A DNA stretch of 64,000 bases, from the NCBI GenBank assembly GCA_030068145.1, contig JAPJBO010000187.1, positions 238,482 through 302,481 of the forward strand. Reading direction: 5' to 3'. The position numbers were made by a program, and so were the translations under genes. Source of the DNA: Diplonema papillatum (taxonomy: Eukaryota; Euglenozoa; Diplonemea; Diplonemida; Diplonemidae). The notes under the pieces are model-generated. The model was given only the letters and a program-made list of their open reading frames with translations. It was not told where the DNA came from and made no database searches. Positions 4,365-33,388 of this stretch are shown here, piece by piece (positions within the stretch are counted from its first letter, which is position 1; each line of letters starts with the position of its first letter).

Positions 4365-4516
4365 GACCGGACATGGCTAACCATAACCCATAACGACAGC
4401 GTGCACCAAATATACAACCCGTATCCATATAGCCCTTTCTTGCTCTAAGAGAACCCATTCACGAACGGTCACACGGAGACCCTAAACCCCCGAATTTCAA
4501 GCGAACGTTAACTCTA
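4365..4516 (+). repeat. relic of Penelope-like terminal repeat
   Basis: This is about 85% similar by eye to the reverse complement of the 350-bp terminal repeat at 12952-13301, including CATAACCCATAACGA and CACACGGAGACCCTAAA. It is oriented as if an element were transcribed on the plus strand, as is the coding relic at 5390-6272. Confidence 0.8.
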
Positions 4517-5389
4517 AAAAGCGCGGAAAACGTTGCTCTACAGGCGTATCTGCCGTCCCGAGCAAAACGGCGCCAACAAGAAGGAACAATCAGACTACCG
4601 ATGTTTTTATTTCGGGATCCTTTTTTTTGTTTGCTGTGCGTCTGGATCAGCGGTTAGGTCAGGACTTTATCGAATCCACGCCCGCGTGGGAAATACTCGC
4701 CGTTCGTTGCCGAAATATCTTGCAGGGAACTCATTCGCTGGGCCTAAATGAACGTCGGAAAGGTCCGTGCAGTGAACACGCGTGTCATGCTTCGTGCCTT
4801 TTTTTATTTCGCGCCACTGTCTTCCAGTTTCTGCCCCCGTCTTTTTCCGGAGTGGGGTAAACACGCAGTCTTTTCCCCTCAAGGTTTATTGTCGCAACCG
4901 AATCCCCGTGCGATCGGGCGGCGCCCACAGCACACAGGACCAAGCGTCCACACGGCATTCGACAATCGAACGTGCACACACTCAGCTTACCACACGAACA
5001 TATTAGTTTACCACACAACGCAAGCGCTCTCTCCGGTAGTTCATGTCAGTTGACCTCGGCCGGGTAACTGCCGAGGGCAAGCGCGGAGGAGATTTTTCTC
5101 GCCTTCGATGAACAGGACCCTGGGTTCTCGGCCCGACGCTGCAGCGTGAGCTGGGCAGTGGACGGGCGAAAGGTGCGCGCTGCTGGGTGGGGCGGCAACC
5201 GAGGGGCACGACGTCGACGATGGCGACGACTTCACGTTCCTTGACCCGGTGCGATGGAGAACGATGGTCCCGACACCATCGATCGCTGTATCACACTTGA
5301 GCCAATGAGGGCACACGAAACGTGTATCACTCATTTCCACGAAAAACTTCACTCTAAAAAGCCCATTCAGACAGGTACGTCCCCACGAT
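4517..5389. other. noncoding, between two Penelope-like relics
   Basis: No gene is recognised. By position it may be the decayed leader of the plus-strand Penelope-like relic, but I could not align it to the intact leader. Confidence 0.4.
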
Positions 5390-6272
5390 CAACCACAACA
5401 GACGCTAAACCAACCGCGCCGCACTACAGCTACGCACTTACATCACAGGCCAGACCAAATTGCAACCCCACACACCCACCCTACCATCCCCATCAGACAA
5501 CCGGCGTATACCGAAGCAACATGTTAGTTTTCCATACGTCTTCCCACGCGAACTTTATCACACACCACCCGTACAAAGAAGCGAACCGGCATCCACAACG
5601 CGACAAGACTCACGGCCGCCGGGGCTAGCAACAGACCGCTGCAACACACACCAACCCTATCAGACAAACGCCACACACCGAAAGGGCATAGATCTCCAGA
5701 CGTTAACCCAGGCGTGCCTCACCAAACTGCTTCTTCAGGAAGACGCGATCCTACACACTCACAACATCGCCAGCCCGACTACCGCCGACGTCGAGCACCA
5801 AACCGCAGCCACGCATACCAACGCTACCAACCCCATCTGACATCCGCTGCACACCGAAAAAGCCTACTAGATCTGCGGGCGTCGTCCCACTCGAATCGTA
5901 TCACGCTTCTTCCGCAGCAGAGAGACACCAGACGACATACACGCCGTATTGTCAAATTCCAGTGCCGCCGACGCCGCACACCGAACTGCGGCCACTCACA
6001 CCAACTTTACCATCGCCATCAGATGACCGCTGCACACCTAAAGGGCCTCCCAGTCCTTACGTCTTCCACGCGAACTTTATCGTACACCGCCCGCAGCAGC
6101 AGTACACGAGCCTACTTACGCACCGTATCACCAGGCCCCACCGCTGACGATGCTGACCACGCAGACACCCAAACAAACCAGAACCCCCACACAATACCGT
6201 AACACCACACCCTCACCCATCATCCACGAAATAGACAACACCACACCGACCTCCAGCACCATCTCAGAAGCT
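5390..6272 (+). pseudogene. Penelope-like element relic, Pro/Ser/Thr-rich N-terminal region
   Basis: The frames here match the second N-terminal repeat region of the intact polyprotein, encoded on the minus strand at about 18.5-19.4 kb. Shared signatures include HTPTL.SP, FPYVFPRELY, DPTHSQ and TQYRNTTPSP, in the same order. The reading frame changes several times and there are internal stops, so no protein is made. Orientation is opposite to the intact element. It ends abruptly near 6272, before GIY-YIG and RT, which are missing. With the terminal-repeat relic at 4365 it forms an old, truncated copy. Confidence 0.82.
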
Positions 6273-7289
6273 TAGTCCAACGATCGGTCTCAGAGCGGCA
6301 AAAGAAAGTTGGTAGGGAATCCAAGACAAAAACGAAGCTAATAGCCTGCACAACAACACGGGGGGTGAAAAAGTTTGGGGGCACAAAAAAAAAAACAAGT
6401 CCCAAACAGGTTTTTGAATTCCTCACCAAAAGTGAGGTTAGCGGGAGCATTGCCGATGGCCCTCAAAAGTTACCGCAGTTTTTGTTCCAATTTTTTAAAA
6501 TTCAAAAACCCCAATTTTTTTCCGGATTTTTTTTTTTGGCCATTTCCAAAAAGACACAAGGTTTTGACCCTGCATGTTATAAAGGGTGGGTGGACCTACT
6601 ATCCAGGGGGACCTATTATCCTAGGATAATAGGTCGACTGGTTTTGGATAAATTTAACTGGTAGTTTAATGTCAGCTACTTTCGTGTAAAGCTGAGCCAA
6701 CTCACCTACCCCCCCCTGAAAGCGACGTGAGCTCGATTACACTCGATTACGCGTCGATTACACTCGATGCATGCAGATTATCGCCACAGATTCTTTGCAT
6801 TCTAATCCAAACGATTACACTCGAATACGATCGATTACAATCGATCAGCTTTTGGTGAATTGGGGGGGTACTGTAACAATTGATTAAACACACAGCACTC
6901 AGCCAATCCTGATTAGCTGATGCAACGTGTCTATTATCGAGCCTTCTTCTGGGGCTAAAGATGCTGATAGCACGATCATCGAATATCGAACAAAAAGAAG
7001 CATATTCGTCTGAAAAAAGGATGTAGCCAGGCAGTGCAGCAGGGGACGAGGAAGTTCGGACTGACTTGTGGAAGCAGGTTGTCGAGTGCATAGGGGCTCG
7101 GGTACCCGTTTTCCCGTATTAGCAACCTTTGCAATTTAGCGCAGCTAATACTCGAGCCTTTTGGCATTCCCTGCGGGGCAGTTCCAGGCGATAGGGCAAG
7201 CGCTTGGCAGACACCCTGTCCTCGAAGATGTCAAGTTTCTGTTTGTGGGTTCGATCACCCTGGCGACAACAAGGCGGTTGAAAACGGAG
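6273..7289. other. noncoding with short simple repeats
   Basis: No gene is seen. A segment starting AAAAAGACACAAGG at about 6548-6576 recurs at about 25305-25333. A self-complementary block GGACCTATTATCC/GGATAATAGGTC lies near 6607-6640 and has a relative near 48157. GATTACACTCGA-type short repeats run from 6735 to 6850. Confidence 0.45.
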
Positions 7290-11346: not shown

Positions 11347-12654
11347 GACGTTAACCCAAACAACTTCCGCCGGTAGAGAAATCTTGCCTAAAGGAATCAA
11401 CTGCCTTCGGGTAGGCTAGTCTGACACTAGTTGTCGTCGGGAAAAAAAAAAAAGTTCGAAAAAAGTTCGGATTTGGTCATTGTTTTGTCAGAATTTTGGT
11501 CCAATCCAAAATTTGGGTCAAAATTTGGTCGAGTTTTTGGACAGTCTTGGGCGGTCCACCGAACCCACACAGAAGTATGTCGAAAGCCAACACTGATGCA
11601 GCCGAACTTAAGCCGGGGTACCTGGCTTTAGAAAACCCCCCAGGTGACAGCAAACCTGCCCCCAGAGCAAACTGGAACTGGTCTTAGTTTGTACTTTCTA
11701 GCTTTCATTCGATACGTTTGCAGTAGTCCCGCAAATACACCCAGCAGATCAAAGAAAGGAGGAAAGGTGGAAATGCAGATCAAACGGGAGTAGAATGTGC
11801 GCACGCTTATCCGTCTCTTGACTTACTATGCCGTGTTCTGAAAGCTGTCGAGGGGCCCCTCCATAGGTTCTCGCATGATCCGCTCGCCTTTGTAACACTA
11901 TCCGTTTGTAGTAAGCTTCGCAATTGTGTTCTTGCAATATCTAACCGAATGGTGGGTGGCGGATTTCCGCGCTCGTGCGCAAGACACAATTATGCTGCTT
12001 TTGCAGTGCAAGCTGAACCCGGTTCGCGACTTCGGTCGCGGTAAAGTGTTACAAAGTCTTCAGCTTTCAGATCCGGATACGCGTATGCAACAGATAGTTA
12101 GAGGTCACTTGAAGGATACCCGTGTGCAGCGTTCGAAAGAGTTTGCGTATCTGGAGTCTTATTTTTTTGGGGGGAAGACCCTTTTGACCCTGTATTTTTG
12201 AGAAGAATTGTGAAACAGCCCGAAGATATTCGATTCCTGATATCGTCCAGCGTAATGGTTGTCCAGAATACTGACCGTGAGAAAGGGTTTCAAGTACATG
12301 CTGTCTGAGTGCGCGACCCAGTTTCCCAATAGCCACCGCGTGCCTTCTGTGCCAGGGGTCGAATACGTTTACTTGCTGACCGGTGCTAACGTTGTAGAAG
12401 GCCCACCTATCACCTGAGTTCACCTCCACAAGGTTCGTTTCGTTACGGCAACTCATGATCACTTCGGTGTACTTGTCTCTTCTCTCCGTACATTGTTCCA
12501 CGTCCGGAAGGTCCTTGCGTTCAGTTCGCGCTTCCTGTGGACTCAAAGACAGTTGATGATCAGGAGGGAATCAGCCATTCTTGCTGTTAACCTACCGTCC
12601 TCCCCGGTTCTGGGTTCGGTTTCGGGTTCGGTTTCAAAACCGACCCCAAAACCG

Positions 12655-12830: not shown

Positions 12831-12951
12831 AAACCCGGTTCAAAACAAATTTGGTGCCCTTATATCCCGAACCGGGATATAAGGGCACAAATTTGTTTTG
12901 ACCGGGATATAAGGGCATTACACCTTTTTTTTTCTGAAAAGTTTTTTTTTT

Positions 12952-13301
12952 AGAGTTAAAGTTCGCTTGAAATACCGGGGTTTTAGGGTCTCCGTGTGAC
13001 CGTTCATGAATGGGTTCTCTTAGAGCAAGAAAGGGCTTTATGGTTACGGATTGTATATTTAGTGCATGCTTTCGTTATGGGTTATGGCTAGCCATATCCG
13101 GGACTGTTTGTGACCGACACCAAGTACATTCCTTCGTGGAGTGTAATCTTGGGCCCCCCACGTTCTACAAGTTGAGCAGGGGTTGCCTTGTAGCCCGTAC
13201 CGGTCTGTTGTCCGCGTTTTAATGTATTTTCTCGTAGAGTAGTGCTTGGGTTTCGCGACACTTGCGGTGCTTCACGTGGTGCGGGTTGCTTCCGCCCTAA
13301 T
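12952..13301 (-). repeat. terminal repeat, 3' copy of the Penelope-like element
   Basis: This is the 350-bp direct repeat partner of 22850-23199. By analogy with other Penelope-like elements it should carry promoter and processing signals. I searched for a hammerhead ribozyme core (CTGATGA with GAAA) on both strands and found none. Confidence 0.9.
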
Positions 13302-13383
13302 ATAAGGTTTTTTTTGGGTAGATTTGCTGGGTAAAACTGTTCGTTGCTCGCCACAGTTAAGGCACTACCCGTGGTTAGTGAGG

Positions 13384-16300
13384 TTATTCGTCTGATGTAG
13401 TCGTCGTTGCTGTGCGTCGTTTACAGTGCTTCTTTTTGCACCAGGGCTTATGGTGGCGTAGACTTTTGAAGCGTGGTTTCCCCACGGTTCGTCCGTCGCT
13501 GTGGCAGTAGGGACATCTATCTCGTTTCTGGGTGGTGCTTCGCAGCGTTGTTTCTGTTTGTGACTTAGTTCTGGGTGGTTTCTTCTTGCAGTAACGTAGG
13601 TGCGTCCGTAATCCTTGTTTTCCCTTCAGTTTGAGGCCGGTTGTTGTTGTGCGTGTGTGGCAGTGGGGACATCGTAAGTCGTCTTCACTGCTGGTCTCTG
13701 TTTCCGCGGTGGTACTGGAGGTCTGTGACGTGCCTGGTGTTGTGGGTGTTCGTGTGGGGGGTGTGCTGTCGTGTCGTTGTGTGGGTGTGTCGGTAGATGT
13801 CTCGTCTCCGCGCATAGCTCTAAGTATGCTTTGAGTCGAGTCCGGCTCTTGTGTTGTGGTTCTGGGCGTGGCAGGCTTTGGGGGTTCATAGTGGTTGTGG
13901 TATGATGGGTCAATGGGTGGAGGGACACCTGTCTGTGGGTTGTCTTTGAGCTGGTAGACGCAGAGGTATACTTCGTTGTCGGTGTAGTTTTGCGTCGAAG
14001 TGGAGTGCGTCTGTAGTCCGTCGAAGCGAGTCCAACGTTGGTTAGCGTCGATATCGTTGAGGGCGTGGATGACGTAGTGCCCGGCGTTGTTGTGGCCGGA
14101 GTGTACTGCTACGGCTTTGAGTATGAGTGGTGTGTTTTGTCCTGGAAGCGTGATAGAGTGGTCGGCGCGTATAGCGGTACGGTTCGTCGCTTGGCGTCTA
14201 CGGGCTCTTTGAAGCTGGATCAACAGCATTGAATTAATGCGGTGAAATGTTGTTGTTGCGAGGGTGGTATCGGTGATTTTGCAGACTTCGCATCTGTAGT
14301 CGGCGGCGGGGCCAGGTTTGATGTGATTGTTCAGGCACCGTTGGATCGAGTTGTCGATTGGAGGTAGGAAGGTTATGTCGTGGTCTTCGGGTGGGTTGGT
14401 TTTGTTGTGGTTGCAGTTTTTACAAGTAGTTGTCGTCGTCGTCGTATGTCGTAGACCGTTGAAAGCGTCAGGGCGATGTTGTTGGCAAGTTTGGTGTGCG
14501 AGGTTTTCGTCAAGAAGTGCTGTGGTGATGGCTCTTAAAACTTCCCCGAGGTCGCATTGCTGCCCGTTGCCGAACGGTCCGTCGATGTTGGCGAAAACGT
14601 GCAGCAGAGTTGCTTGCGTCCGCTTTCCTGTCACCCAAGCGTGTACGGCTGCCGTGCATTCGCCTTTCGTGTGTGTTGGGCAGTCGTGGTATGTGACTAC
14701 TTGTTGTGCCATGTCTGTGGCGGCGATCAAATTAAGGGCCGCTTGCAGAAAACAGGAGTTTGTGGTGGTGTATCTCGTGAGTTTAGACATGGTCCTCGCT
14801 CCGGCGGCTGCGATTGCTGCTGCTAAGGTGATGGTTGCAGCTAGGTTGGCTACTCGGTGCTTCAAGGTGAACTGAGGTTGTGGTTGTGAAAGGAGGTTTG
14901 TTGGTCTTTCCTCGTGTTCATGGATTGTTGTGGAGTGGCTGTCTGTCGTTGAGTCGAGATCCTCCGGTGTTACTGGCAGTTCGGCTGGTTTGAAGTTAAG
15001 GGGTTGGTGTCTTCCGGCGAAATCTGGCTCTTTCATGCGCGGTTTGCCGTTCTTGAAACGCGCAATGCTGTACCCTAGGAACGGTTTTAACTGGCTGTGT
15101 AGTCGTGGTAGGGTTCGGAACTCCTCCGTCAGCCAAGCTTGCCAAGGGGGGTAGAGAACTCTGGGGTGGTGCCCCCGTTCGAGCATCGCGTATACGTTGC
15201 GCTGGATCTCGACGCGAAGGTCCTGCCAGTGGTTGGTCTGTCGAATTGCCCTGATGAGAGACCCTTTGAAAATGCCGCTGGCCTGTGATTTGGGGGCGGT
15301 GGTCTGGTAGTGTGTGAAACGTGTGCCGAAGGTTTTTGGGTGTACGCTTAGTCTTATGTGTGGCGGGTGTGGTGCTGCGGGTCGTTCAATACGTATACGT
15401 ATTCCAAGGAAGACGATGTCGTCGCGTGCTGCTGTCGTCTCCTTGTACTCCATACGATAGAGTGATTGAGGTGGTGGTTTGCAGTCCCATTGGAGGAAGT
15501 CATCAATGAAACGCCATGTGTCGACGTGGGCTTTGGCTTCGTCGACTTTGCCTTCTGCGAGCAGTCCGTCTATGTACTCGGACTCCACACTGTAGCAATA
15601 CAAGTTGGCCAGGTCCGAACTTGCATTGCCTCCCATCGGAATACCTTCCGTTTGGCGTAGTATGGTTTCGTCTTGCTCGATGTAGGCATTGTCGATGACA
15701 AAGTTGAGGAGGGCTTTGAGCTCTTCTTTTGTATAGTTTCGGCTGGTGTTGTTCGCCCCTTTGCCGAAACTAAAAGTCTTTTTGCCCTGTTGCTTAGCTC
15801 CTCGGGTGAGGTGGTTGTTGCCGTGCTTCTCCTCGTATTCATAAGCTTCGTCGACAGCTGAACCAACCCTGCGCTTGAGATCTGCGTGCGGTAGGTTGGT
15901 GTACATTGTCGTGAAGTCGTGGTCGGTGGGTGTTTTGTATCTCAGATGGGTTTGACGCTGTTTGACGTTGAGGGCTATGTCGTCGGGGCTCTCGGTGAAG
16001 AAGACCTTCTTTATTCCCGTCTGTCGTTGGTTCCGTCGGTCCTTTTCCTTTATCGTCCGCATAATCGCCTTCAGCAGACCGGACAGCTCTAGGTGGGCGT
16101 TCGTAGTAGTTGCTTTCGGTTTCTGCTTGCGCGCAGCTGCCTTGTTGTCTTTCCTTACGATGTCTGTCGCTACGCCCGCGATCCACCGGAAACTCGGTTC
16201 GGCTTTATGCAATTTGAGACTGCCGTAGAGGTATGGTAGTCCGCCTTGTGCTTGTAATTTGAAAGGCTCGAGCTGCTGCTTGTGTTGTTGTTGAAGCTGC

Positions 16301-19300
16301 GTCTTCGTTATATTTTCCTTCTTGTATGTGGCGCTGGTTTGTATTTGCTCCCGTAGTGTGTTTGTGTAGTACGCCTTGCAACAAAACCCGAAGTCGTGTG
16401 TGGTTTTGTCTACGGGCAGTATCACCAAGTCTTGTTTGAGTCTCTTGAGTTCTTGCGATGCGATACGGCTCAAAGTTTCTTCGTCAGATGGTGGTAAGGT
16501 GGCTAGGCGTCCCGAAAGTTCGTCCTTCAACGCGGTTCCAAAAGCGGTAGCGTTTGGTTCCGACGGGTAGTATTTTTCTACGTATTCGTCTATGGAAGTG
16601 TGTAGTCCCTCTTCGAGTGCGTGATGGTCCTGGTAGCAGCGGTATTTTCGTCCGCGTTTGATACACTCAGTGAGGCCTTTGTCTTGTGTTATATCGAAAA
16701 GGTGCCCGATCGCGTGTCCTTGAATGTTCTTGTCGCCGCGGTAGTGTCGGCACGCGCATTGATCGGGTGGACCGAGTGCGAGGTCTGGCAGGCTTTTACT
16801 GACTTCTGTGACGTTCTGGACCCGTAGGAACAGGGGTGGGTTTAGTCGGAACGTTGTCTTGGTACGATCTAGAGTGCGTCGGTTAGGGCATGCTTCGCGT
16901 ATTTGTGGTTGTTGGAGTAGGTCGTTGAGGTGGAGTCGGTGTATGTGGTCGCTTCCGTGTGTGATGATCAGTCGTGCTGGTGCGCCGTCATTCTTCTCGA
17001 CTTTCGACAACGTGACTTCGCTGAGCCTATCCTTCAAATGGGTTTCCAACGTGATGACGTTCTTCGGTAGGTTACTAGTTGGTGCGTTCGATGCTATCCA
17101 GTTGAGCAGACGTCGTGCCCTCGGCCGTCCCATCGAGCTGAAATCGTATTTAAAGAGGTCTTTGTCGTTGAGCGAGAGGAGATGGTGGAGTTGTTTGCGT
17201 ATGGAGTAAGCGCGGCCTTCGGTGGTCTGGTTGATGAGTAGTTGGCCGTCCGTTATCCATGCCCAAACGGTGCTGGACGGTGCACTCGGAGGTCGGAAAC
17301 GTTCTTGGTTTGACTTCTTGTTGCGACTGCGGTGCTGTCCTGTGTTGCTTCTCATGTATCGTTGCGCGTTGTAGACGGTGTTGAGGTGCGAAATCCAGAA
17401 GTTTTCTCGCGGGAGGGCTTGACGTCTGAAGTCTTCCGTCGAGGCGTCGTCGGCAATTTTGATCTTAATTAGGGGGACGGTGAAGAGCGGGTAGTTTCTT
17501 TTCAACATCGCGGACGCTACGGGTGTGCCGTTACGTCTAGCGTACCAATGTGAATCTAAACGCTCGCGCGCGGTGTGTTTGGTCTGGCCGACGTAGCGAG
17601 GGTTACCGCGTTCGTCTACCAGTGCATACACGACTCCTTTGTCGGCATAACTTGCTTTGTCTGCGTCGCAGTGTTTCCATCCTTTTGCCAGTTTGCGATG
17701 ATACTTGGCGAGAAACGTCTTCTCGGCTTCTTTTCGTCGTGCTTCGTACTCACTCCAAAACTGTTTTCCGTAGTTGAATTTGGCTTTCGTTCGAAAGCAT
17801 GTCAGGAAAGGGTTCTTGTGAAACTCCGGCCTTCGTGCGTCCTGTGAATTTATCGCGTTCTGGACGATTGTGTGCTTCTGGAAATCCTTTTTGCTGGGTG
17901 AGTTGGTGGAATTAGCGGGGATGTCTTCTGGTGTACTTTGTGTGTGTTCCGTTGCATTAGTCGTAGGTCGGTAGTGCCAGTTGCTGTAGGTCGCTTGTCG
18001 TTGTGATGGAGTGTGGTTGGGTTGTTGTAGGTTAGTGTCTGTGGTGACATGGGTGTAGGTCTCCCGAGTTCGGGTGTGCGGCAGTTTATGGCGGTGGCTA
18101 TCGCGTACGAAGGGTGTGAGGACAGGCGGTGGCGAAGGTGTTGGGTGTTCGGTTGTCCTTTGTATACTTTCTTTGTATGTGTCGCGCCCGGGCATGGTGT
18201 TGTTAGTCGGTATGTGTTTGAGTGCGTCGCTTTGGTGTGAGCTAAGTTCGGCGGATGGCGGTGTGGGTTTTGCTAGCGGGTGTGTTTGGTGGGACGGCGT
18301 CGAGTTTGGAGGTGTAGTCTGATGCGTCCTGTGTGTCATCGCTTCCTGGTAAGTGGGTAAAGGGGATGCGTCGTGAGTAGTATGGTTTGACATGCGGCGT
18401 GCGAATGTAGGTGTGATCGGCGTGTCGGTAGCGAGTGTCGTACTGCTCGTGGAGTTGGGGGCAAGAGGTTTTGTTTGTGAGTGGTCGTGAAAATCGTTGG
18501 ATTGTGCTTCTGAGATGGTGCTGGAGGTCGGTGTGGTGTTGTCTATTTCGTGTATGATGGGTGAGGGTGTGGTGTTACGGTATTGTGTGGGGGTTCTGGT
18601 TTGTTTAGGTGTCTGCGTGCTCAGCATCGTTGGCGGTGGTACCTGGTGATATGGTGCGTAAGTAGGCTCGTGTACTGCTGCGGGCGGTGTACGATAAAGT
18701 TCGCGTGGGAAGACGTAAGGACTGGGAGGCCCTTTAGGTATGCAGCGGTCATCTGATGGCGATGGTAAAGATGTAGTGGGTGGCTGCAGTCCGGTGTGCG
18801 GCGTCGGCGGCAGTGGAATTTGACAATACGGCGTGTATGACGCCTGGTGTCTTGCTGTGGCGTAAGCGTGATTCAATTCGAGTGGGACGACGCCTTCAGC
18901 TTTAGTAGGCTTTTTCGGTGTGCAGCGGATGTCATATGGGGATGGTAGCGTTGGTATGTGTGGCTGCGGTTTGGTGCTCGACGTCGGCGGTAGTCGGGAC
19001 TGGCGACGCTGTGAGTGTGTAGGATCGCGTCTTGCTGCAGAAGCAGTTTGGTGCGGCACGACTGGGTTAACGTCTGGCGATCTATGCCCTTTCGGTGTGT
19101 GGCGTTTGTCTGATAGGGTTGGAGTTTGTTGCTGCGGTCTGTTGTCAGCCGGCGGCCGTGCGTCTTGTCGAAACTTTGTGGTTGCCGGTTCGCGTCTTTG
19201 TACGGGTGGTGTGCGATAAAGTTCGCGTGGGAAGACGTATGGAAAACTAACATGCTGCTTCGGTGTACGCCGGTTGGCTGATGGAGATGCTAGGGTGGGT

Positions 19301-21669
19301 GTGTGGGGTTGCAATTTGGTCTGGCCTGTGATGTAAGTGCGAGTAGTTGTAGCTGCGGTGCGGCGCGGTTGGTTTAGCGTCTGTTGTGGTGACCACTGGT
19401 GAGCCGTCGGGGAACCGGATGCGTCGCTCGTAATAGTCGGCGGTGTTGGATTGATCGTGGGGAAGTACCTGTCTGAACGGGCTGCGACGTCGCTGTACGA
19501 GGTCGGTGTCGAACGATTAGTTGACGGTGTTTGGGGTGTGGGTTGCTTCGATTGTCGGTATGGTCGGGGGATGAAGAACTCCGGAGTTCGTACAGGTGAG
19601 AGTCTGTGCATGATCGGTTTGCAGTTCGAACTTCGCGGACTTGGTGAAAAGAAAGAGTCTGCCGGAAAGGAGGGTAGCGGTGGGTTGGCCGTCGGGACGT
19701 ACCAGTCGGCGGGGGTTGCGGTGTCCTTGCTTGTTGGTGGTGCGAGCCGTGGCGATGGTCTTCGCGGTATATAGAGGTCCGTCGGTGTTGTTGGAAAACT
19801 GTGCATGTGTGACTTTGGCGAACTGTACGTGGTGCGCCGTGCCGGAGAGTATGATGATTCGGAGGGTGACAGTGGGTTGGCTGTAGGGACGTACCTATCA
19901 GCGGAGGTTGCCGCGTCTTCGTATGTTGTTGGTGCGAACCGTGGCGACGGTCTTCGTGGTATATAAAGGTCCGTCGGTGTTGTCGGCAAGCTGTGCATGT
20001 GCGACTTTGGTGGGCCGGACGCGGTGCGACGCGTCGGGGAGTATGAAGATTCGGCGGGTGACAGTGGGTTGGCTGTAGGGACGTACCAATCGGCGGGGGT
20101 TGTCGCGTCTTTGTATGTTGTTGGTGCGAACCGTGGCGACGGTCTTCGCGGTATATAGAGGTCCGTCGGTGTTGTCGGCAAACTGTGCATGTGCGACTTT
20201 GGTGGGCCGGACGCGGTGCGACGCGTCGTGGAGTATGAAGATTCGGTGGGTGACAGTCGGTTGGCTGTAGGGACGTACCAATCAGCAGGGGTCGCGTCTT
20301 TGTATGTTGTTGGTGCGAACCGTGGCGACGGTCTTCGCGGTATATTGAGGTCCGTCGGTGTTGTCGGCAAACTGTGCATGTGCGTCTTTGGTGGGCCGGA
20401 CGCGGTGCGACTCGTCGTGGAGTGTGAAGATTCGGCGGGTGACAGTGGGTTGGCTGTAGGGACGTACCAATCAGAGGGGGTTGCCGCGTCTTTGTATGTT
20501 GTTGGTGCGAACCGTGGCGACGGTCTTCGCGGTATATAGAGGTCCGTCGGTGTGGTCAGCAGACTGTGCAAGTGCGTCTTTGGTGGGCCGTACGCGGTGC
20601 GATGCGTCGTGGAGTGTGAAGATTCGGTGGGTGACAGTGGGTTGGCTGTAGGGACGTACCAATCATTGGGGGTTGCCGCGTCTTTGTATGTTGTTGGTGC
20701 GAACCGTGGCGACGGTCTTCGCGGTATATAGCGGTCCGTCGGTGTTGTCGGCAGAATGTGCATGTGCGTCTTTGGTGGGCCGTACGCGGTGCGACGCGTC
20801 GTGGAGTGTGAAGATTCGGCGGGTGGCAGTGGGTTGGCTGTAGGGACGTACCATTCAGCGGGGGTTGCCGCGTCTTTGTATGTTGCTGGCACGAAACGTG
20901 GCGACTGTCTTCGCGGTATATAGTGGTCCGTCGGTGTTGTCGGCAGACAATCAGCGGGTGTTGCGGCGTCTCTGCTTGTAGCTGGAGCGAAACGTGGAGA
21001 CGGGCTTTGCGGTATATAGAGGTCCGTCGGAGTTGTCGACAAGCTGTGCATGTGCGCCTTCGGGCAAGCTTTGGGCGAAGGAATAGTATTGGTGTGATGT
21101 CGGTGGCGTCGTGGGGGACGGTCTGCCGTCGCTCGAGCACGGTTGGGCTTCCCGACAGAGTGCACGCGTGCAACCGGGTCGGCGCCGTGCTCTCGAGCGA
21201 GGTGATGTCCAGGGGTGTTGCTTTGCGTTTTGTCGTTTGTAGCAAACTTGTTGTAGCGGCTCTTCGGTAGGTTTTTAGATGGATATAGTCGGTCACGGTT
21301 GGGGCAGCCACTAGGACTGGAGAGTGAGTTGGAGGGAGTGGGAGGGAGGGGGTGACGTGAAAAGCTCATTCGTGGAGAATGAACGTTAAACGCCGCGATG
21401 TTTCTTATCGCTGTAAGGAACTCAGGGTCCGGGCCCACATGTGCCGTGCCATGTGGGTAGTTTCGCATTTTGCATGCTAACGTAGCAGGTGTGTTATTTA
21501 TGGAGAAGGAACACCCCAACTCGCCACTGAGTGGCCCGAGTTGGATGACGATACGTTGTACGCCAATTTTTTTCTCCTTCGAAGTAGAAAAAGAGAGCAT
21601 GGTGTTGGGAACCTCAGTACGGTCTTGTGATCGGCCCTCGCTACTGCCGTCTTTTGGCTCAGGTTTCAA
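13384..21669 (-). CDS. Penelope-like polyprotein: repeats, GIY-YIG, RT, USP-like deubiquitinase, zinc fingers
   Basis: A single 2761-codon ORF. Residues about 1-1330 are Pro/Ser/Thr-rich with tandem 64-residue units (about 200-676). A GIY-YIG nuclease follows (VVYAL with Tyr1348, RYVGQT with Tyr1359). A CxC/H..H motif (QCACRHYRGD..GHAIGH) lies near 1637. The RT has SLKLHK, motif A DFTTMYTNLP (Asp1918), GIPMGGNASSDLANL and RFIDDF (Asp2056-2057), all Penelope-type. Residues about 2295-2580 resemble ubiquitin-specific proteases: Cys box NSCFLQAALNL (Cys2306), QQCDLGEVL, two CxxC pairs, LLIQLQR, His box AGHYVIHA (His2531) and WTRFDG (Asp2550). The end has two C2H2-type fingers (about 2666 and 2716). 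GIY-YIG upstream of RT matches the Naiad/Chlamys group as I know it. The USP-like domain is the surprise; its role (protein stability or chromatin) is inference. The stop is TAA at 13384-13386. Confidence 0.9.
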   Translation of the reverse strand: MKPEPKDGSSEGRSQDRTEVPNTMLSFSTSKEKKIGVQRIVIQLGPLSGELGCSFSINNTPATLACKMRNYPHGTAHVGPDPEFLTAIRNIAAFNVHSPRMSFSRHPLPPTPSNSLSSPSGCPNRDRLYPSKNLPKSRYNKFATNDKTQSNTPGHHLAREHGADPVARVHSVGKPNRARATADRPPRRHRHHTNTIPSPKACPKAHMHSLSTTPTDLYIPQSPSPRFAPATSRDAATPADCLPTTPTDHYIPRRQSPRFVPATYKDAATPAEWYVPTANPLPPAESSHSTTRRTAYGPPKTHMHILPTTPTDRYIPRRPSPRFAPTTYKDAATPNDWYVPTANPLSPTESSHSTTHRTAYGPPKTHLHSLLTTPTDLYIPRRPSPRFAPTTYKDAATPSDWYVPTANPLSPAESSHSTTSRTASGPPKTHMHSLPTTPTDLNIPRRPSPRFAPTTYKDATPADWYVPTANRLSPTESSYSTTRRTASGPPKSHMHSLPTTPTDLYIPRRPSPRFAPTTYKDATTPADWYVPTANPLSPAESSYSPTRRTASGPPKSHMHSLPTTPTDLYIPRRPSPRFAPTTYEDAATSADRYVPTANPLSPSESSYSPARRTTYSSPKSHMHSFPTTPTDLYIPRRPSPRLAPPTSKDTATPADWYVPTANPPLPSFPADSFFSPSPRSSNCKPIMHRLSPVRTPEFFIPRPYRQSKQPTPQTPSTNRSTPTSYSDVAARSDRYFPTINPTPPTITSDASGSPTAHQWSPQQTLNQPRRTAATTTRTYITGQTKLQPHTPTLASPSANRRTPKQHVSFPYVFPRELYRTPPVQRREPATTKFRQDARPPADNRPQQQTPTLSDKRHTPKGHRSPDVNPVVPHQTASAARRDPTHSQRRQSRLPPTSSTKPQPHIPTLPSPYDIRCTPKKPTKAEGVVPLELNHAYATARHQASYTPYCQIPLPPTPHTGLQPPTTSLPSPSDDRCIPKGPPSPYVFPRELYRTPPAAVHEPTYAPYHQVPPPTMLSTQTPKQTRTPTQYRNTTPSPIIHEIDNTTPTSSTISEAQSNDFHDHSQTKPLAPNSTSSTTLATDTPITPTFARRMSNHTTHDASPLPTYQEAMTHRTHQTTPPNSTPSHQTHPLAKPTPPSAELSSHQSDALKHIPTNNTMPGRDTYKESIQRTTEHPTPSPPPVLTPFVRDSHRHKLPHTRTRETYTHVTTDTNLQQPNHTPSQRQATYSNWHYRPTTNATEHTQSTPEDIPANSTNSPSKKDFQKHTIVQNAINSQDARRPEFHKNPFLTCFRTKAKFNYGKQFWSEYEARRKEAEKTFLAKYHRKLAKGWKHCDADKASYADKGVVYALVDERGNPRYVGQTKHTARERLDSHWYARRNGTPVASAMLKRNYPLFTVPLIKIKIADDASTEDFRRQALPRENFWISHLNTVYNAQRYMRSNTGQHRSRNKKSNQERFRPPSAPSSTVWAWITDGQLLINQTTEGRAYSIRKQLHHLLSLNDKDLFKYDFSSMGRPRARRLLNWIASNAPTSNLPKNVITLETHLKDRLSEVTLSKVEKNDGAPARLIITHGSDHIHRLHLNDLLQQPQIREACPNRRTLDRTKTTFRLNPPLFLRVQNVTEVSKSLPDLALGPPDQCACRHYRGDKNIQGHAIGHLFDITQDKGLTECIKRGRKYRCYQDHHALEEGLHTSIDEYVEKYYPSEPNATAFGTALKDELSGRLATLPPSDEETLSRIASQELKRLKQDLVILPVDKTTHDFGFCCKAYYTNTLREQIQTSATYKKENITKTQLQQQHKQQLEPFKLQAQGGLPYLYGSLKLHKAEPSFRWIAGVATDIVRKDNKAAARKQKPKATTTNAHLELSGLLKAIMRTIKEKDRRNQRQTGIKKVFFTESPDDIALNVKQRQTHLRYKTPTDHDFTTMYTNLPHADLKRRVGSAVDEAYEYEEKHGNNHLTRGAKQQGKKTFSFGKGANNTSRNYTKEELKALLNFVIDNAYIEQDETILRQTEGIPMGGNASSDLANLYCYSVESEYIDGLLAEGKVDEAKAHVDTWRFIDDFLQWDCKPPPQSLYRMEYKETTAARDDIVFLGIRIRIERPAAPHPPHIRLSVHPKTFGTRFTHYQTTAPKSQASGIFKGSLIRAIRQTNHWQDLRVEIQRNVYAMLERGHHPRVLYPPWQAWLTEEFRTLPRLHSQLKPFLGYSIARFKNGKPRMKEPDFAGRHQPLNFKPAELPVTPEDLDSTTDSHSTTIHEHEERPTNLLSQPQPQFTLKHRVANLAATITLAAAIAAAGARTMSKLTRYTTTNSCFLQAALNLIAATDMAQQVVTYHDCPTHTKGECTAAVHAWVTGKRTQATLLHVFANIDGPFGNGQQCDLGEVLRAITTALLDENLAHQTCQQHRPDAFNGLRHTTTTTTTCKNCNHNKTNPPEDHDITFLPPIDNSIQRCLNNHIKPGPAADYRCEVCKITDTTLATTTFHRINSMLLIQLQRARRRQATNRTAIRADHSITLPGQNTPLILKAVAVHSGHNNAGHYVIHALNDIDANQRWTRFDGLQTHSTSTQNYTDNEVYLCVYQLKDNPQTGVPPPIDPSYHNHYEPPKPATPRTTTQEPDSTQSILRAMRGDETSTDTPTQRHDSTPPTRTPTTPGTSQTSSTTAETETSSEDDLRCPHCHTRTTTTGLKLKGKQGLRTHLRYCKKKPPRTKSQTETTLRSTTQKRDRCPYCHSDGRTVGKPRFKSLRHHKPWCKKKHCKRRTATTTTSDE
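19640..21070 (-). repeat. 192-bp in-frame tandem repeat in the Penelope-like ORF
   Basis: About seven full units and partial ones encode the pattern PTTPTDLYIPRRPSPRFAP..YKDAATPADWYVPTANPLSP..SS. Units differ by a few residues and occasional single-codon gaps, always in frame. This suggests selection on the protein and unequal exchange. Confidence 0.92.
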
Positions 21670-22268
21670 ACGTTAGGAACGAGGGGCTTGCTGTCATGCT
21701 CAGGGGAGGTTGAGGGAGGAATGGGCAGAAGCTTGGAAGCTGTATCAGGCGAACCATCGGTCCGTGTCCTCAACGGGTGCAGAGGCGCCGGGACCTCGCT
21801 AGCTGCTTTTGTTGGGTTAGCTTCCTGGAGAGCTAGCTAGGAGAAACGGGAAGTTGTCCGAAGGTCTGCTACAAGATTGCGGGCTGTTGTTGGTAATTGA
21901 GGCGATAGAGGGCGTAGGTGAAGAGTTGGAGTTGTGTGCGGGAGGTAATCGTGGGAGCGACGGGATGGTTTTGATAGGTGAAGTTGATGCTGTCGTCGAG
22001 TACGTGTTCGTAAGGAGCCGGTGTATGTTGAGTCGTCGAGGTTAGTGTAAGTCGATGATTTGAAGCTGAATCTGACTGAGTTGGAACGTGTTAATGCAAT
22101 CGTCGGGCGAAGTGTCTGCGATGACAGCGAAAGGTTGTTGAGGGTGTTGCGTCGTCGTTGCATTGTGTCTGCCGTCAAGAATGAGTTTGGAATGGATCGT
22201 CATGTTGAAGGTATTGTGCGTAGTGGTGCGAGTAGTGTACTGTTGTGGTTCTGTACGTGTGGCCGCTG

Positions 22269-22774
22269 TTAGTTGTTGTGCGTGCGTCGGGAAGGCCTTG
22301 CGTGTGGTGGCAGCGGGCGTCGTATATCTAAGGTCGGTGAGCGCACGGTTGCGTTTAAGTAAGGGAAGAAAGTTTGAGGTGTCGTATGCGGTTTGTCGTG
22401 AAGAATGCCGAAAAACGATGCGGATTGCAATTGGAATAGGTCGGCGTGCGTGCGTTGTAGGATGATGTCAGCCGGAGGTAGGCGTGGGTCCGTTATGAAA
22501 GCGTCGTTGCTTGAAGTTTAAAGGTAAGTGCGGGTGCTTGGGACGGCGTGATGTTGTGAGCAAGATAAACGTCTAGTGTGGGGATCGCAGCTGCTGTCGT
22601 GCTTGTAAAGCTTGTTGCCAGACTCGGCGAAAGCGGAGGTGGCGGGTGTTGTAGCGTAGTGTTAGAAAGATCAGTCAGCTGGATGTTTGAGAACTGCTGG
22701 CTAAACGGGCTGTCTTGGTGTAGCAGGTCCACTAGCTTCGGCAGTGTTTCTTTGAAAAAGATGTGTACAGGCAT
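22269..22774 (-). CDS. possible small first ORF of the Penelope-like element (with a frameshift)
   Basis: In the leader between the 5' terminal repeat and the large ORF, an ATG frame runs from 22774 to 22493 (93 codons, beginning MPVHIFFKETLPKLVDLLHQ). A +1 frame then stays open to 22269 with coding-like content (ADIILQRTHADLFQLQ). A one-base shift would join them into about 168 codons. No domain is recognised. The first part is amphipathic and could be helical. It may be a decayed ORF1 or leader noise. A further 113-codon frame at 21837-22178 is Ser/Thr-rich and even less certain. Confidence 0.35.
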
Positions 22775-22849
22775 AGGGGCCGAGGTCCCTTTTGCTTGAC
22801 CTAGCTCATAGGTAGCATCGTATGTGCCACAGTGCTAAGTACTTTTTTT

Positions 22850-23199
22850 AGAGTTAAAGTTCGCTTGAAATACCGGGGTTTTAGGGTCTCCGTGTGACCG
22901 TTCATGAATGGGTTCTCTTAGAGCAAGAAAGGGCTTTATGGTTACGGATTGTATATTTAGTGCATGCTTTCGTTATGGGTTATGGCTAGCCATATCCGGG
23001 ACTGTTTGTGACCGACACCAAGTACATTCCTTCGTGGAGTGTAATCTTGGGCCCCCCACGTTCTACAAGTTGAGCAGGGGTTGCCTTGTAGCCCGTACCG
23101 GTCTGTTGTCCGCGTTTTAATGTATTTTCTCGTAGAGTAGTGCTTGGGTTTCGCGACACTTGCGGTGCTTCACGTGGTGCGGGTTGCTTCCGCCCTAAT
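22850..23199 (-). repeat. terminal repeat, 5' copy of the Penelope-like element
   Basis: This is the upstream copy relative to the minus-strand ORF, so the place to expect the promoter. Relics of the same repeat occur at 4365-4516, 25140-25215 and 39086-39333. Confidence 0.9.
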
Positions 23200-23291
23200 C
23201 TACGTTTTTTTTTTTTTTTTTTGCGCGCGCGCGTGTAAATTTCTGTGGGCCGACGGACATGGGCCAAAAAAAAAAAAAAACCGCCTACCCT

Positions 23292-23689: not shown

Positions 23690-24708
23690 CCCTAACAAAT
23701 ATGTGCCCTTATATCCCGGTTCAAAACAAATTTGGTGCCCTTATATCCCGGCTCAAAACAAATATGTGCCCTTATATCCCGAACCGGGATATAAGGGCAC
23801 CAAATTTGTTTTGGACCCAAGATACTGGGGCCAAAAAAATCGGGAAAAAATCGAAAAAAGTTCGAAAAAAGTTCGAAAAAAGTTCGAAAAAAGTTCGAAA
23901 AAAGTTCGAAAAAAGTTCGAAAAAAGTTCGAAAAAAGTTCGAAAAAAGTTCGAAAAAAGTTCGAAAAACATCGAAAAAAATCGAAAAAAGTTCGAAAAAA
24001 GTTCGAAAAAAGTTCGAGAAAAGTTAGTTCGAATTTGGTCATTTTTTGGTCAGAATTTTGGTCCAGTTCAAAATTTGGGTCTAAATTTGGTCGAGTTGTT
24101 GGACAGCCTTGGGCGGTCCACCGAACCCACACAGAAGTATGTCGAAAGCCAAAACCCCCCAGGTGACAGCAAACCTGCCCCCAGAGCAAACTGGAACTGG
24201 TCTTAGTTTGTACTTTCTAGCGTTCATTCGATACGTTTGCAGTAGTCCCGCAAATACCCCCAGCAGATCAAAGAAAGGGGGAAAGGTGGAAAATGCAGAT
24301 CAAACGGGAGTAGAATGCACGCTTATCCGTCTCTTGACTTACTATGCCGTGTTCTGAAAGCTGTCGAGGGGCCCCTCCATAGGTTCTCGCATGATTCGCT
24401 CGCCTTTGTAATACTATCCGTTTGTAGTAAGCTTCGCAATTGTGTTCTTGCAATATCTAACCGAATGGTGGGTGGCGGATTTCCGCGCTCGTGCGCAAGA
24501 CACAATTATGCTGCTTTTGCAGTGCAAGCTGAACCCGGTTCGCGACTTCGGTCGCGGTAAAGTGTTACAAAGTCTTCAGCTTTCAGATCCGGATTCGCGT
24601 ATGCAACAGATAGTTAGAGGTCACTTGAAGGATACCCGTGTGCAGCGTTCGAAAGAGTTTGCGTATCTGGAGTCTTGTTTTTTTGGGGGGAAGGCCCTTT
24701 TGACAACG
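23690..24708. repeat. repeat block Y2
   Basis: Second copy of block Y. It begins with TTATATCCC/GGGATATAAG pairs. At 23845-24025 it has about 16 tandem units of TTCGAAAAAAG, many more than in Y1. It then continues through the 500-bp stretch shared with 11680-12190. It lacks the LINE tail found in Y1. Confidence 0.75.
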
Positions 24709-25072
24709 CATGGCTCACAGAAGAATTCTGCAACCTGCCACGACTCCACAGCCAGCTCAAGCCGTTCCTTGGATTCTGCATAGCCCGGCACAAAACACGC
24801 CAACCACGCATCAACGAACCGGAGTACGCCGGCAAACACAGGCCAACCAACTTCTTCCCAGCCCACTTACCGAGCGAATCACCATCCTCCGTTGACTCTC
24901 CATCACAACCCACACACGAATTAACCGTCACGGCCAAAAACTCTTCGAGCACATGGACACGCACCTCGGCGACGGAGAACAACACGACCTAGAAGAAGCC
25001 TTGCTTCAACTACTCGCTGCGATAGCGAACGAAAACGAAGAACACCGCACGCCAACCAAATTGCGTTAGGGG
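24703..25072 (+). pseudogene. Penelope-like relic ending soon after the RT
   Basis: The frame WLTEEFCNLPRLHSQLKPFL through EPEYAGKHRPTNF matches the post-RT region of the intact polyprotein (WLTEEFRTLPRLHSQLKPFL, EPDFAGRHQPLNF). After a frameshift near 24940, a second frame reads EHMDTHLGDGEQHDLEEALL and stops at 25070-25072. The intact element has its USP-like domain at this point. A terminal-repeat-like end follows at 25140-25215, so the copy seems to reach its own 3' end without that domain. The upstream RT is missing. Confidence 0.75.
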
Positions 25073-25215: not shown

Positions 25216-26426
25216 AAAAACTGCGGTGATTTTTGATGAAGTTGAGCAATTTTTTTTTCCAAAATTTTTTCTTGGGCTCTGTCGGCCCCGCGGCAGCGTT
25301 TACCAAAAAGACACAAGGTTTTGACCCTGCATGGTATGCACACACACACACACACACATACAAGCAAGCTTTTTAGCGACGAAGGTGCTGGACTCCCCCG
25401 TTCTGTGGATAGCCACTGCACCCCAGTACTTGTATCGTCCACCCTGTCGATCACATGCTACTGCACCAGTCTTCCTGAGGCTCGCTGTGCTCACCACAAA
25501 ATTAATTGCTGGAAAGACGTGGAACCGGGCTTACACAGCTCTCCGTATGACCCGAGCACCCTGTACACCATTGCAATGTCGGTACTCTCGTTCTCGTTGC
25601 AGGTCAGTTCGAAGACAGTGCAACTGGAGACCCTGAAACACCGAACTCTAAACCTCAATAAACGCGCGAACATGGCCTGCAGCAAGTTCCTGTGTAGGCC
25701 CAGTTTGCAAGGCATGCTCTATTTATTTTTGCCAGGGGCCTCTGCGTACTGATTTTCAGTACGTATTTAGCTCCAAGACAAAAGAGCTGCGTAAGCCCTG
25801 GTTGACTACCAATTCTAATTGAATTTGGGATCCGAATTTGGACGTTGACTACCACTTCTAATTGATTTTGTAGTGTACTGTTACATGTCGTGTTGCCAAG
25901 AAGACCGCACTGTCCGCCCTGCCGTCGCAGATAACCGCCAAGCGACACTCGCCTTCTTCGCATGGCTTTTTCGCTTCCCGAAGGCCAGTCGACAACTACA
26001 AGTTGGCTCGCATCAAAGTTGCCACAGTCGCTGTGGACTACAAAACGGCTAGCAAATCTTGCTGTGTGGCACTACCTTCCATGAGCAACACCCTCCTGCA
26101 CGTGTCACATTTCGTCCGAACACCCCACGCCCTCAACACAGTGTCGGTCTGAGCTCCACACGCACCAAGTGCCACGAGGACCCTGAAAAGTGCTCTGTAC
26201 ATTTGGTAGGATTTTACGTGGCACTACTTCCCTGCTGGGTATGTCCCCAAAAAAAAAAACAGCTTACAAGTGCGTCGTGTAGTGCGCACAAACAACATGC
26301 ACGTCGGATTGACTCATTTAAAACGATTCCATGCGTCCTCCGAAGAGGGTATTACCTGTGGCCTTTACACCTCTACTATTACATGCGCACCAGCGTCGAC
26401 GGGGTGGTGAAAAACGGGAAAGAGTC
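25216..26426. other. noncoding, 5' flank of the methyltransferase-like gene
   Basis: It holds a CA-type microsatellite at about 25336-25361 and a reverse-oriented piece of the 48-bp satellite found at 39400 (GTTGACTACCAATTCTAATTG at about 25802). Several short frames show no domain or codon signal. I see no convincing promoter box. Confidence 0.45.
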
Positions 26427-27320
26427 ATGCAATGCGTGGCTTTCGGAATAGTCGGTTGTGCGGTGGGGTATTGTGTGGGAAGGCAGAGCAGGAAGAAAGA
26501 AATCGAAGAGGAGGATGCAGGGTGGAGTCGGAGCGTAGACACATACGTGCCGAACATGAAGCACGTGTCGCGAAGGCTAGCAAAGGACGCCGGGGCCGGA
26601 ACCTATCCGAAGCGGGACGTCGTGTGCAGCGATGCGATGGAGTGGATGAGGCAGGTGGGTGTCATCCGCGGGTGCGTGATCTCTGGACTGCCGGACGTTT
26701 CAGAAATGTTAGAACTCGGAGATGCGGGCTACGCGGCCTGGTTTTCTGAAGCGGTTACACAGATTGTAACCCGTCTCGACGATGGCATGATAGCATGTTT
26801 CCACCAGACGGACACCCGCATCAACCGTATCGACACTTTAAGCAAAGCGGAGCTCGTGTTCCGAGCCGTTCGCGAGAGCAAAGCAAACGTGACCCTCTTA
26901 TGGCACAAAGTAGCCTTAGCGACACCGTGCGGGGTTTGCAAAGTCGGCAGGCCATCGTTTACTCACATGATCTGCTACGTGAAAGGACCAGCGGATCCCG
27001 TGCGTGTGAATCGGTGCAACCGGCTCCTCAAAGTCCCTGACTGCATGGACCGAGGTACACTCCTGTGGTCGCGCGGCATGGGTGTGATCGCAGCAATGAA
27101 GACGATCGAGTACATCAAGTGCTACCTGGACACGTCTGATGTGACCATCGTTGACCCCTTTTGCGGCCACGGCACCATCCCGGCCGTTGCCAACACACTC
27201 GGTCTGCCATCCATAGGCATCGACCTCTCCACGAAGTGCTGCAAAGCCACCACCAAGGCAACGACGGACGATCTTCTAGTAGATCGAAAGCGACTGATAT
27301 CTGCAAGATACGACGCGTGA
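26427..27320 (+). CDS. permuted SAM-dependent methyltransferase-like protein with N-terminal anchor
   Basis: A 297-codon gene. I chose the second in-frame ATG (26427) because it begins MQCVAFGIVGCAVGYCVG, a hydrophobic segment followed by RKK, as in a signal anchor; the ATG at 26331 would add 32 residues without features. The body has SGLPDVSEM near 90, then WFSEAV, CFHQTDTR, TLLWHKVAL, RPSFTHMICY, WSRGMGV, and near 242 the glycine-rich VDPFCGHGT with GIDLSTK. The SAM-binding loop therefore comes last and an LPD motif stands where DPPY would be, a permuted order like N4/N6 DNA methylases. From memory, uncharacterised bacterial and protist proteins share this pattern. Substrate is unknown. No intron, no neighbours of related function. 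Confidence 0.78.
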   Translation: MQCVAFGIVGCAVGYCVGRQSRKKEIEEEDAGWSRSVDTYVPNMKHVSRRLAKDAGAGTYPKRDVVCSDAMEWMRQVGVIRGCVISGLPDVSEMLELGDAGYAAWFSEAVTQIVTRLDDGMIACFHQTDTRINRIDTLSKAELVFRAVRESKANVTLLWHKVALATPCGVCKVGRPSFTHMICYVKGPADPVRVNRCNRLLKVPDCMDRGTLLWSRGMGVIAAMKTIEYIKCYLDTSDVTIVDPFCGHGTIPAVANTLGLPSIGIDLSTKCCKATTKATTDDLLVDRKRLISARYDA

Positions 27321-32495: not shown

Positions 32496-33049
32496 TTGTG
32501 TGGTGCGCGTGCGGGGGAAGAGGCGGCGGGATCGGAAGGTTCGGCGAGCTCTCCCGCGTCAACGACGGCGTCGTCGACGACGTCGACCGCATCAGATGCG
32601 TCCGGTAGCTTCGACGAGCAGGCTGACGAAGACGGAGGCTTCTCCACGGGTGAGCGGCGCCCGCCGCCGGACCGGTGTTGCAGGGACTGTGACCGCCACG
32701 CCCACGACACGGCGGATCACTTGTGGTGGGAGTGCCCTGCGTACGACGAGATTCGCCGCCGCCCCTGCTTTGCTGAGCTCATGCGGGCGGACCGTGCGCG
32801 GTGGCCGTCTTGTACGCGCGTGCACGGGGTAATCGTGGAAGGCGCGCCGGTCGACGCGGCGGCCTTGCACCATTTCATGGCGTCGGTGTACGTGGCGCGC
32901 GAAGAGTGTGAATGTGGCCGTCTGGCAGCGGTACAGCCGATCCACCCCTGGAGGGCGGCAACGTCGCGGCCGGTGGTCCGACACCTGTTTGACTTCGGGC
33001 GCCTACCGGATGAGCCGCCGAAGTGGCCGAACCCACGCCAACCCAACAA
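32496..33049 (+). pseudogene. second LINE C-terminal fragment
   Basis: The frame carries a zinc knuckle CCRDCDRHAHDTADHLWWEC, the same layout as in the LINE above but clearly diverged, so another family or a distant copy. There is no RT upstream. Its 3' end runs directly into a Penelope-like relic. Confidence 0.65.
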
Positions 33050-33388
33050 ATTCTCGAAGAAATGCGTGGCCTAGAGCCTACTCCGGGCCACACGCCCGAA
33101 ACGGAGGCACTCCAATGTCCGAACTGCCACACACGAACGACGAAAACTGGCACTGCAATAAAAGGCATCCACGGCCTGAGCATCCACCTGCGTTTTTGCA
33201 AGAAGAAACTACGACGCACACCACCACGCCACAGCACCACGCCTGCAAGCTCAGCCGGCAAAAGGGAGATTTGCCCGTACTGTCACAGCGACGGACAGAC
33301 ACCGAACAAACCACAATTCACAAGCCTACGACACCACAAACCGTGGTGCAAAACTAAACACCGCAAACCAGGAGCTACGACCAGATAA
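33050..33388 (+). pseudogene. Penelope-like relic: C-terminal zinc fingers and 3' flank
   Basis: The frame has CPNCHTRTTKTG..IKG..GLSIHLRFCKKK and CPYCHSDGQTPNKPQF..LRHHKPWCKTKH, matching both C-terminal fingers of the intact polyprotein with the Cys and His residues kept. The stop and the following CCTTAACTG.GGA..ACAA.CAG block also match the intact 3' flank (33389-33460). Everything upstream of the fingers is absent. Confidence 0.85.

Follow-up and report, generated by a model that had tools for sequence, protein, structure and literature searches.

A predicted deubiquitinase domain in the polyprotein of a Penelope-like element

The 64,000-nucleotide stretch of the Diplonema papillatum genome analyzed here (the window; contig JAPJBO010000187.1, positions 238,482 to 302,481) contains a Penelope-like element (PLE) whose polyprotein most likely includes a catalytically competent ubiquitin-specific protease (USP), as judged from the residues that the domain retains. 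The original prediction, made from the DNA letters and their translations, had placed a USP-type domain on the minus strand at 13930-14775 (approximately residues 2299-2580), between the reverse transcriptase (RT) and the C-terminal zinc fingers of an intact open reading frame (ORF). The domain does lie in this position, and the ORF, 2761 codons when counted from a TTG, is open throughout. Its first ATG is codon 24, so the ATG-started protein would have 2738 residues.

Membership in the USP family is far beyond chance. Pfam PF00443 (UCH) matched the ORF at residues 2302-2572 with an E value of 2e-11 and 44.4 bits against a cutoff of 23.9, and the C-terminal half alone was matched at 6e-12. Each predicted motif was found at the residue assigned to it: the catalytic Cys2306 (14752-14754), His2531 (14077-14079), and Asp2550 (14020-14022); the QDxxEFL-type box, present as QQCDLGEVL with D2373 and E2376; LLIQLQR; and the two CxxC pairs of the zinc site (Cys2416/2419 and Cys2460/2463). 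The fold comparison proposed along with the prediction returned a papain-like USP fold, with USP12/46 at the top of the list of neighbors, followed by SAGA Ubp8 and USP1. By sequence, yeast Ubp8 was the top neighbor (E value, 4e-4).

The ORF runs from Pro/Thr-rich repeats through a GIY-YIG endonuclease core, the RT, and the USP to two zinc-finger-like motifs, and the element is bounded by direct repeats (Table 1). The GIY-YIG motif, the terminal repeats, and the decayed copies nearby were absent from the original prediction. The 377-bp repeats fit the pseudo-long terminal repeats (pseudo-LTRs) of PLEs, as described in the available parts of two papers (PMC11167929, PMC3846280). Pfam scored the GIY-YIG core of the window protein (P0001) at 16.4 bits, below the cutoff of 22.6; among its relatives, P0006 (23.8 bits) and P0008 (23.0 bits) passed, P0009 was at the cutoff, and P0007 fell below it. 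The pattern lies upstream of the RT in 10 of the 38 PLE RT proteins described below, many of the others being truncated. Pfam did not report RVT_1 for P0001 at an E value of ≤1; the RT aligns through its motifs with those of its relatives. A PDB sequence search with the window RT gave two weak, meaningless matches only, and no named PLE was among the matches of the RT protein searches. Because the RT tree includes no named PLE, membership rests on the architecture, the repeats, and the related GIY-YIG-plus-RT proteins P0024 and P0042.

Identity as a SLACS/R2-type long interspersed nuclear element (LINE) was rejected, as the RT is unlike those of the LINE-type proteins P0002-P0005 in both searches: the window PLE RT retrieved none of them at an E value of ≤1e-3, and the PLE RT profile matched none at ≤0.01. 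Rfam reported no hammerhead ribozyme at the gathering score across the window; the two Rfam matches inside the element at an E value of ≤5 belong to other families, and the hammerhead core pattern occurred 6 times, with 4.8 expected. A hammerhead ribozyme in the repeat is common in PLEs and is not required. In a check for target-site duplication, the longest word common to both flanks was a poly-T run.

TABLE 1 Features of the element and of its decayed copies in the window
Feature	Coordinates	Strand	Evidence
Whole Penelope-like element, ~10.3 kb, bounded by two direct terminal repeats	12939..23213	-	self-BLAST, repeats
Upstream terminal direct repeat (pseudo-LTR), 377 bp	22837..23213	-	98.7% identity to 12939-13315
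Downstream terminal direct repeat (pseudo-LTR), 377 bp	12939..13315	-	98.7% identity to 22837-23213
Single ORF, 2761 codons from TTG	13384..21669	-	
Pro/Thr-rich N-terminal part, ~seven 192-bp (64-residue) tandem repeats	19669..21063	-	
GIY-YIG endonuclease core, residues 1344-1383 (GVVYALV...YVGQT...R)	17521..17640	-	motif intact; Pfam below cutoff
Reverse transcriptase, residues 1691-2215, motifs DFTTMY, GIPMGGNAS, RFIDD	15025..16599	-	alignment, trees, profile
USP (peptidase C19) domain, residues 2290-2575	13945..14802	-	
Two C-terminal zinc-finger-like motifs, residues 2667-2694 and 2719-2744	13438..13671	-	pattern match
Decayed second copy: RT end and USP piece with QHDLEEAL box	24618..25066	+	
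C-terminal zinc-finger part, related decayed copy	33014..33385	+	

RT-peptidase fusions recur in related elements

The RT-USP fusion is not a one-off. The search for the same architecture elsewhere, also proposed with the prediction, recovered it in D. papillatum, in a probable Rhynchopus transcript, and in other records. Searching with the USP region found three proteins, all from D. papillatum, and searches with the GIY-YIG-plus-RT region and with an alignment from the RT to the C terminus found 19 proteins and, at an E value of ≤1e-10, 30 proteins, respectively; both RT searches scored only the candidates that shared the most words, limited by length. The set of PLE RT proteins numbers 38 with the window's own (P0001 and P0006-P0042). 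All matches bearing an organism name are diplonemid and at most 58% identical to the window protein; they include P0016 by its label, Rhum, which we take to mean Rhynchopus humris.

Eight of the 38 proteins are truncated or chimeric models that have lost the C-terminal end of the RT (P0018, P0019, P0022, P0026, P0027, P0028, P0031, and P0035), by a cutoff picked after the table was seen. A further six of the other 30 carry no peptidase and end at most 28 residues past the RT (P0024, P0037, P0038, P0039, P0041, and P0042). In the remaining 24, the slot behind the RT holds a predicted USP (17 proteins), OTU (2), or Josephin (2) domain or gave no peptidase match (3). The USP profile was matched over most of its length in eight proteins (P0001, P0008, P0009, P0010, P0015, P0016, P0029, and P0036) and partly in nine, down to 18 residues in P0006. 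A single D. papillatum family of near-identical copies accounts for many of the 17 (P0010-P0014, P0025, and P0034), and independent USP lineages are therefore far fewer, about seven on the tree.

These counts depend on profiles that are not independent of the proteins. Six of the seven domains behind the USP profile come from the 17 matching proteins, and the OTU and Josephin profiles derive from the same two pairs that they match; independent labels for the latter come from Pfam. The OTU domain of P0040 scored 28.9 bits against a cutoff of 23.3 and matched OTUD1 in the PDB at 7.3e-06, and that of P0017, once excised, reached 20.9 bits, below the same cutoff. For Josephin, with a cutoff of 26, P0023 scored 41.9 bits and P0021 scored 24.4. 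No Josephin was matched in the PDB by the P0023 piece, so that its label rests on Pfam and on a Q-x4-C, a His, and an Asp read by eye. The three proteins with no peptidase match are P0020, whose model jumps from the RT to the zinc finger, P0030, and P0032. Behind the PLE RT of P0030, residues 664-861 show the order H...D...Q-x5-C seen in C48 (Ulp1-type) peptidases, in a model too poor for a firm label. In P0033, the USP profile covers only the part from the second zinc pair onward, where those Cys and the His box are kept; YYCALSAVLQ at 1795 is, by eye, a candidate Cys box. Zinc-finger-like motifs end 7 of the 38 proteins (P0001, P0008, P0009, P0017, P0020, P0023, and P0040).

An RT tree of 23 rows contains a branch with support of 100/99 that separates 17 rows from 6 peptidase-free rows. 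A C-terminal ubiquitin or ubiquitin-like peptidase, whole or broken, is present in 16 of the 17, which were scored as 11 USP (including the remnant of P0006 and the fragment of P0007), 2 OTU, 2 Josephin, and, from its motif only, C48-like for P0030, with P0032 left unscored. The USP and OTU rows are joined with support of 91/97. A topology in which all USP rows form one clade that excludes the OTU rows was not rejected (approximately unbiased test, p-AU 0.22), and the tree gives the USP lineages no firm order. The Josephin rows fall apart into P0021/P0032 and P0023, and their union in one clade had a p-AU of 0.017, for a group named after the tree was seen. Parsimony requires a minimum of four changes of state, with P0032 uncounted and P0006 and P0007 taken as USP; we claim no more swaps than this minimum, which cannot separate gain from loss. 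The placement of single rows is unsure because some have long branches (P0024, P0042, P0033, and P0023) or odd composition, and the program warned that P0024 and P0042 may be falsely joined.

Possible exchange and origin of the USP

Among the element USPs compared, the one closest to that of the window is annotated in a model of another class of element. The window USP matched the USP of P0003, a D. papillatum protein annotated as a SLACS-type retroelement protein, with 268.7 bits, and the other PLE USPs tested with at most 27.7 bits in either direction. P0003-P0005 have a LINE-type RT with an RVT_1 match, and P0003 and P0005 are 62% identical in the RT and 88% identical in the N-terminal half of the USP. 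These scores suggest that the USP may have moved between PLEs and SLACS-like LINEs, the latter being represented here by annotated gene models (P0003-P0005). In the window itself, Pfam gave no UCH match for the SLACS-like ORF P0002. Downstream of the USP, at approximately residues 2143-2324, P0003 has a segment (WGWAALNWLAV) that by eye resembles a papain-like Cys box lacking its Cys and that has no Pfam match.

Two of four PLE groups have USPs closer to a solved USP than to another PLE group: P0008 (48.8 bits with human USP12; at most 36.8 with another group) and P0010 (42.6 bits with a USP15 construct; at most 25.9). The other two are not nearer a solved USP, with 34.1 bits for a solved USP and 36.8 for a PLE group in the case of P0016 and 23.2 and 27.7 bits in that of P0001. 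As bit scores rather than a tree test, these values hint at separate captures in the first two groups. A viral origin was not supported in the viral-contig and phage-record collections: 44 and 25 stretches of viral contigs matched the patterns, with none confirmed as a relative of the RT or the USP, and the USP had no match among the phage records.

Possible roles of the peptidase

Our preferred reading, which we consider somewhat probable on the sequence evidence, is that an active USP acts in cis to shield the RT complex. Joined to the RT in a single polypeptide, the peptidase would accompany it, strip ubiquitin or chains of it off the RT/RNA complex of the element itself, and so let that complex escape host turnover long enough to carry out reverse transcription into a new site. 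This reading starts from a USP fold with intact active and zinc sites, fused in frame and recurring in relatives, some of which have other families of ubiquitin-directed peptidase at that position. The activity, the choice of ubiquitin over ubiquitin-like proteins as the substrate, and the action in cis are inferred. USP, OTU, and Josephin enzymes share ubiquitin removal and not sequence. Since the clade keeps one or another ubiquitin-removing family in the same position, it most likely needs deubiquitination, and action in cis is the simplest form of that need because RT and peptidase form one chain.

Several observations weigh against it. P0029 has Asn in place of Asp2550 and Ile at 2378, its other key residues being kept. 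In P0036, Cys, His, and Asp are intact, but N2304, L2378, G2530, and one of the aligned zinc Cys are altered. P0032 lies within the clade and lacks a recognizable peptidase. The OTU label of P0017 fails on the whole protein, which has no Pfam OTU match at an E value of ≤10, and against the PDB, where the OTU piece matched no OTU. Between P0010 and P0029, the linker is 40% identical and the USP 35%, so this pair shows no excess conservation of the USP. Finally, the second copy of the element in the window is decayed.

The main rival, which we judge fairly unlikely, gives the same active USP a substrate at the target site, such as histones or repair factors, where it would aid target-primed reverse transcription or repair of the product. 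It draws on the fold and sequence lists headed by USP12/46 and yeast Ubp8, respectively, on the possibly nucleic-acid-binding zinc finger that follows the peptidase in P0001, P0008, P0009, P0017, P0023, and P0040, and on the repair role that Bao et al. (2010) propose for the OTU/Ulp1 peptidases of Ginger1, in the passages available (PMC2836005). However, fold neighbors do not reveal a substrate, and the use of OTU and Josephin domains would speak against one very specific monoubiquitinated residue.

It is improbable that the USP is a passenger, a captured host domain kept as a binding module or under no selection. PLEs are able to capture host DNA, according to the available part of one paper (PMC3846280), and partial profile matches in 9 of 17 USP proteins, together with the broken second copy, would fit such a domain. 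Conservation argues otherwise. In a joint alignment of seven USP domains, 16 columns are invariant, among them the Cys, His, and Asp, the D/E box, and the four zinc Cys, although identity to the window USP is 46% for P0003 and only 23, 20, 19, 20, and 16% for the other element USPs (20 to 28% for the PLE rows in pairwise alignments). In two of three pairs, moreover, the linker has diverged faster than the USP (29% versus 60% identity for P0008/P0009 and 41% versus 68% for P0010/P0015).

Processing of the element's own polyprotein, in the style of retroviral or viral papain-like proteases, is very improbable. The great length of the single polyprotein (2738 to 2761 residues) would suit it, but USPs require folded ubiquitin ending in Gly-Gly, and at an E value of ≤1, UCH and GIY-YIG were the sole Pfam matches in the ORF, with no ubiquitin-like domain among them. 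Other PLEs also function without a protease. Finally, an artifact of assembly, gene prediction, or chance nested insertion is extremely improbable for the window, given one uninterrupted ORF between terminal repeats and the same domain order in other records and a transcript, even though D. papillatum models P0012-P0014 and P0018 are chimeric with host genes and the LINE-USP models P0003-P0005, known from annotation, may have been falsely joined.

Other features of the window

Another copy of the element is represented by an N-terminal part at 5361-6284 (+) and a terminal-repeat piece at 4367-4520, each with ~91% DNA identity. Outside the flanks of the element, direct repeats that are 92 to 98% alike lie at 11448-12188 and 24006-24704, near short AAAAAAGTTCG-unit arrays; they may represent an outer element or a duplication of the target. 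Between decayed PLE pieces, an ORF at 26331-27320 (+) has a short C-terminal match to a DNA methylase profile (N6_N4_Mtase, 28.0 bits against 26.7), covering the profile's end only. An RNase H domain lies in the 711-residue ORF at 30045-32180 (+), possibly another retroelement inserted in the decayed PLE copy. An intronless ALG6/ALG8 glucosyltransferase gene at 48741-50360 (+; E value, 3e-119) is an ordinary host gene. The 2273-residue R2/SLACS-like ORF at 56968-63789 (+), with an RVT_1 match at 1.8e-08 and a GC content of 0.60 to 0.76, has cysteine-rich finger motifs by eye and no peptidase match.

Discussion

Among the closest known systems are PLEs with an N-terminal GIY-YIG domain (the Chlamys type, found in green algae and their relatives). 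The window element likewise has its GIY-YIG motif upstream of the RT within a single ORF and has terminal direct repeats; it differs in its C-terminal USP and zinc fingers and in that no hammerhead was found.

Ubiquitin and ubiquitin-like peptidases in transposons are already known, and what appears to be new here is the RT-USP fusion in a PLE. The OTU and Ulp1-type proteases of transposable elements mentioned in the original prediction are indeed in print, as far as the available parts of three papers go (PMC2836005, PMC4640811, PMC6431247). Ginger1 elements resemble the PLE clade in having a C-terminal peptidase, OTU or Ulp1, directed at ubiquitin or SUMO and interchangeable within the group, but they encode a DDE DNA transposase rather than a retroelement RT, and the passages seen name no USP or Josephin (PMC2836005). 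In the same passages, Trichomonas vaginalis XP_001314237.1 (transposase_11 plus Peptidase C19) also fuses C19 to a transposition enzyme, in this case a DNA transposase; it is one named protein with no slot swapping described. NeSL/Utopia non-LTR elements likewise carry a cysteine peptidase of a ubiquitin-like-directed family in a retrotransposon ORF, but theirs is Ulp1-like and N-terminal to a LINE RT with a restriction-like endonuclease (PMC4640811, in the part available). Helentrons have an OTU-like cysteine peptidase in the transposon polyprotein and, unlike the PLE, are rolling-circle DNA transposons (PMC6431247, likewise). The SLACS-like proteins P0003-P0005 share the USP subfamily (46% identity over the domain for P0003) and differ in their LINE-type RT. 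In a literature search, with subscription papers mostly outside it, none of the matches listed described a USP, OTU, or Josephin domain in a PLE. The D. papillatum genome paper, part of which was available, annotates up to ~2500 gene models as retroelement proteins, and its main text does not contain the terms "penelope" and "ubiquitin" (PMC10161547).

Few retroelements of eukaryotes are as poorly understood as PLEs. The physical fusion of an RT with a deubiquitinase, whose family varies at this position among related elements, is a natural experiment on which activity of the host an element has to oppose. D. papillatum can be cultured, and its annotated proteins include several such peptidase-bearing PLE families; by the title of its genome paper, it is a model species (PMC10161547). 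It could thus be asked whether ubiquitin limits retrotransposition and whether a retroelement must carry its own eraser. We are evenly divided on the broadest claim, that protists harbor a PLE clade with an obligatory ubiquitin-peptidase slot behind the RT, filled by at least three unrelated families (USP, OTU, and Josephin, and perhaps a C48 type) through repeated capture and even swapping with LINEs of the SLACS-like kind. In that case, the tagging of retroelement complexes with ubiquitin would be an ancient defense of these protists against retrotransposition, and the deubiquitinase an essential counterdefense. That several relatives have different, unrelated tag-removing enzymes at this position suggests that such elements may need to counter or rewire the host ubiquitin system to spread.
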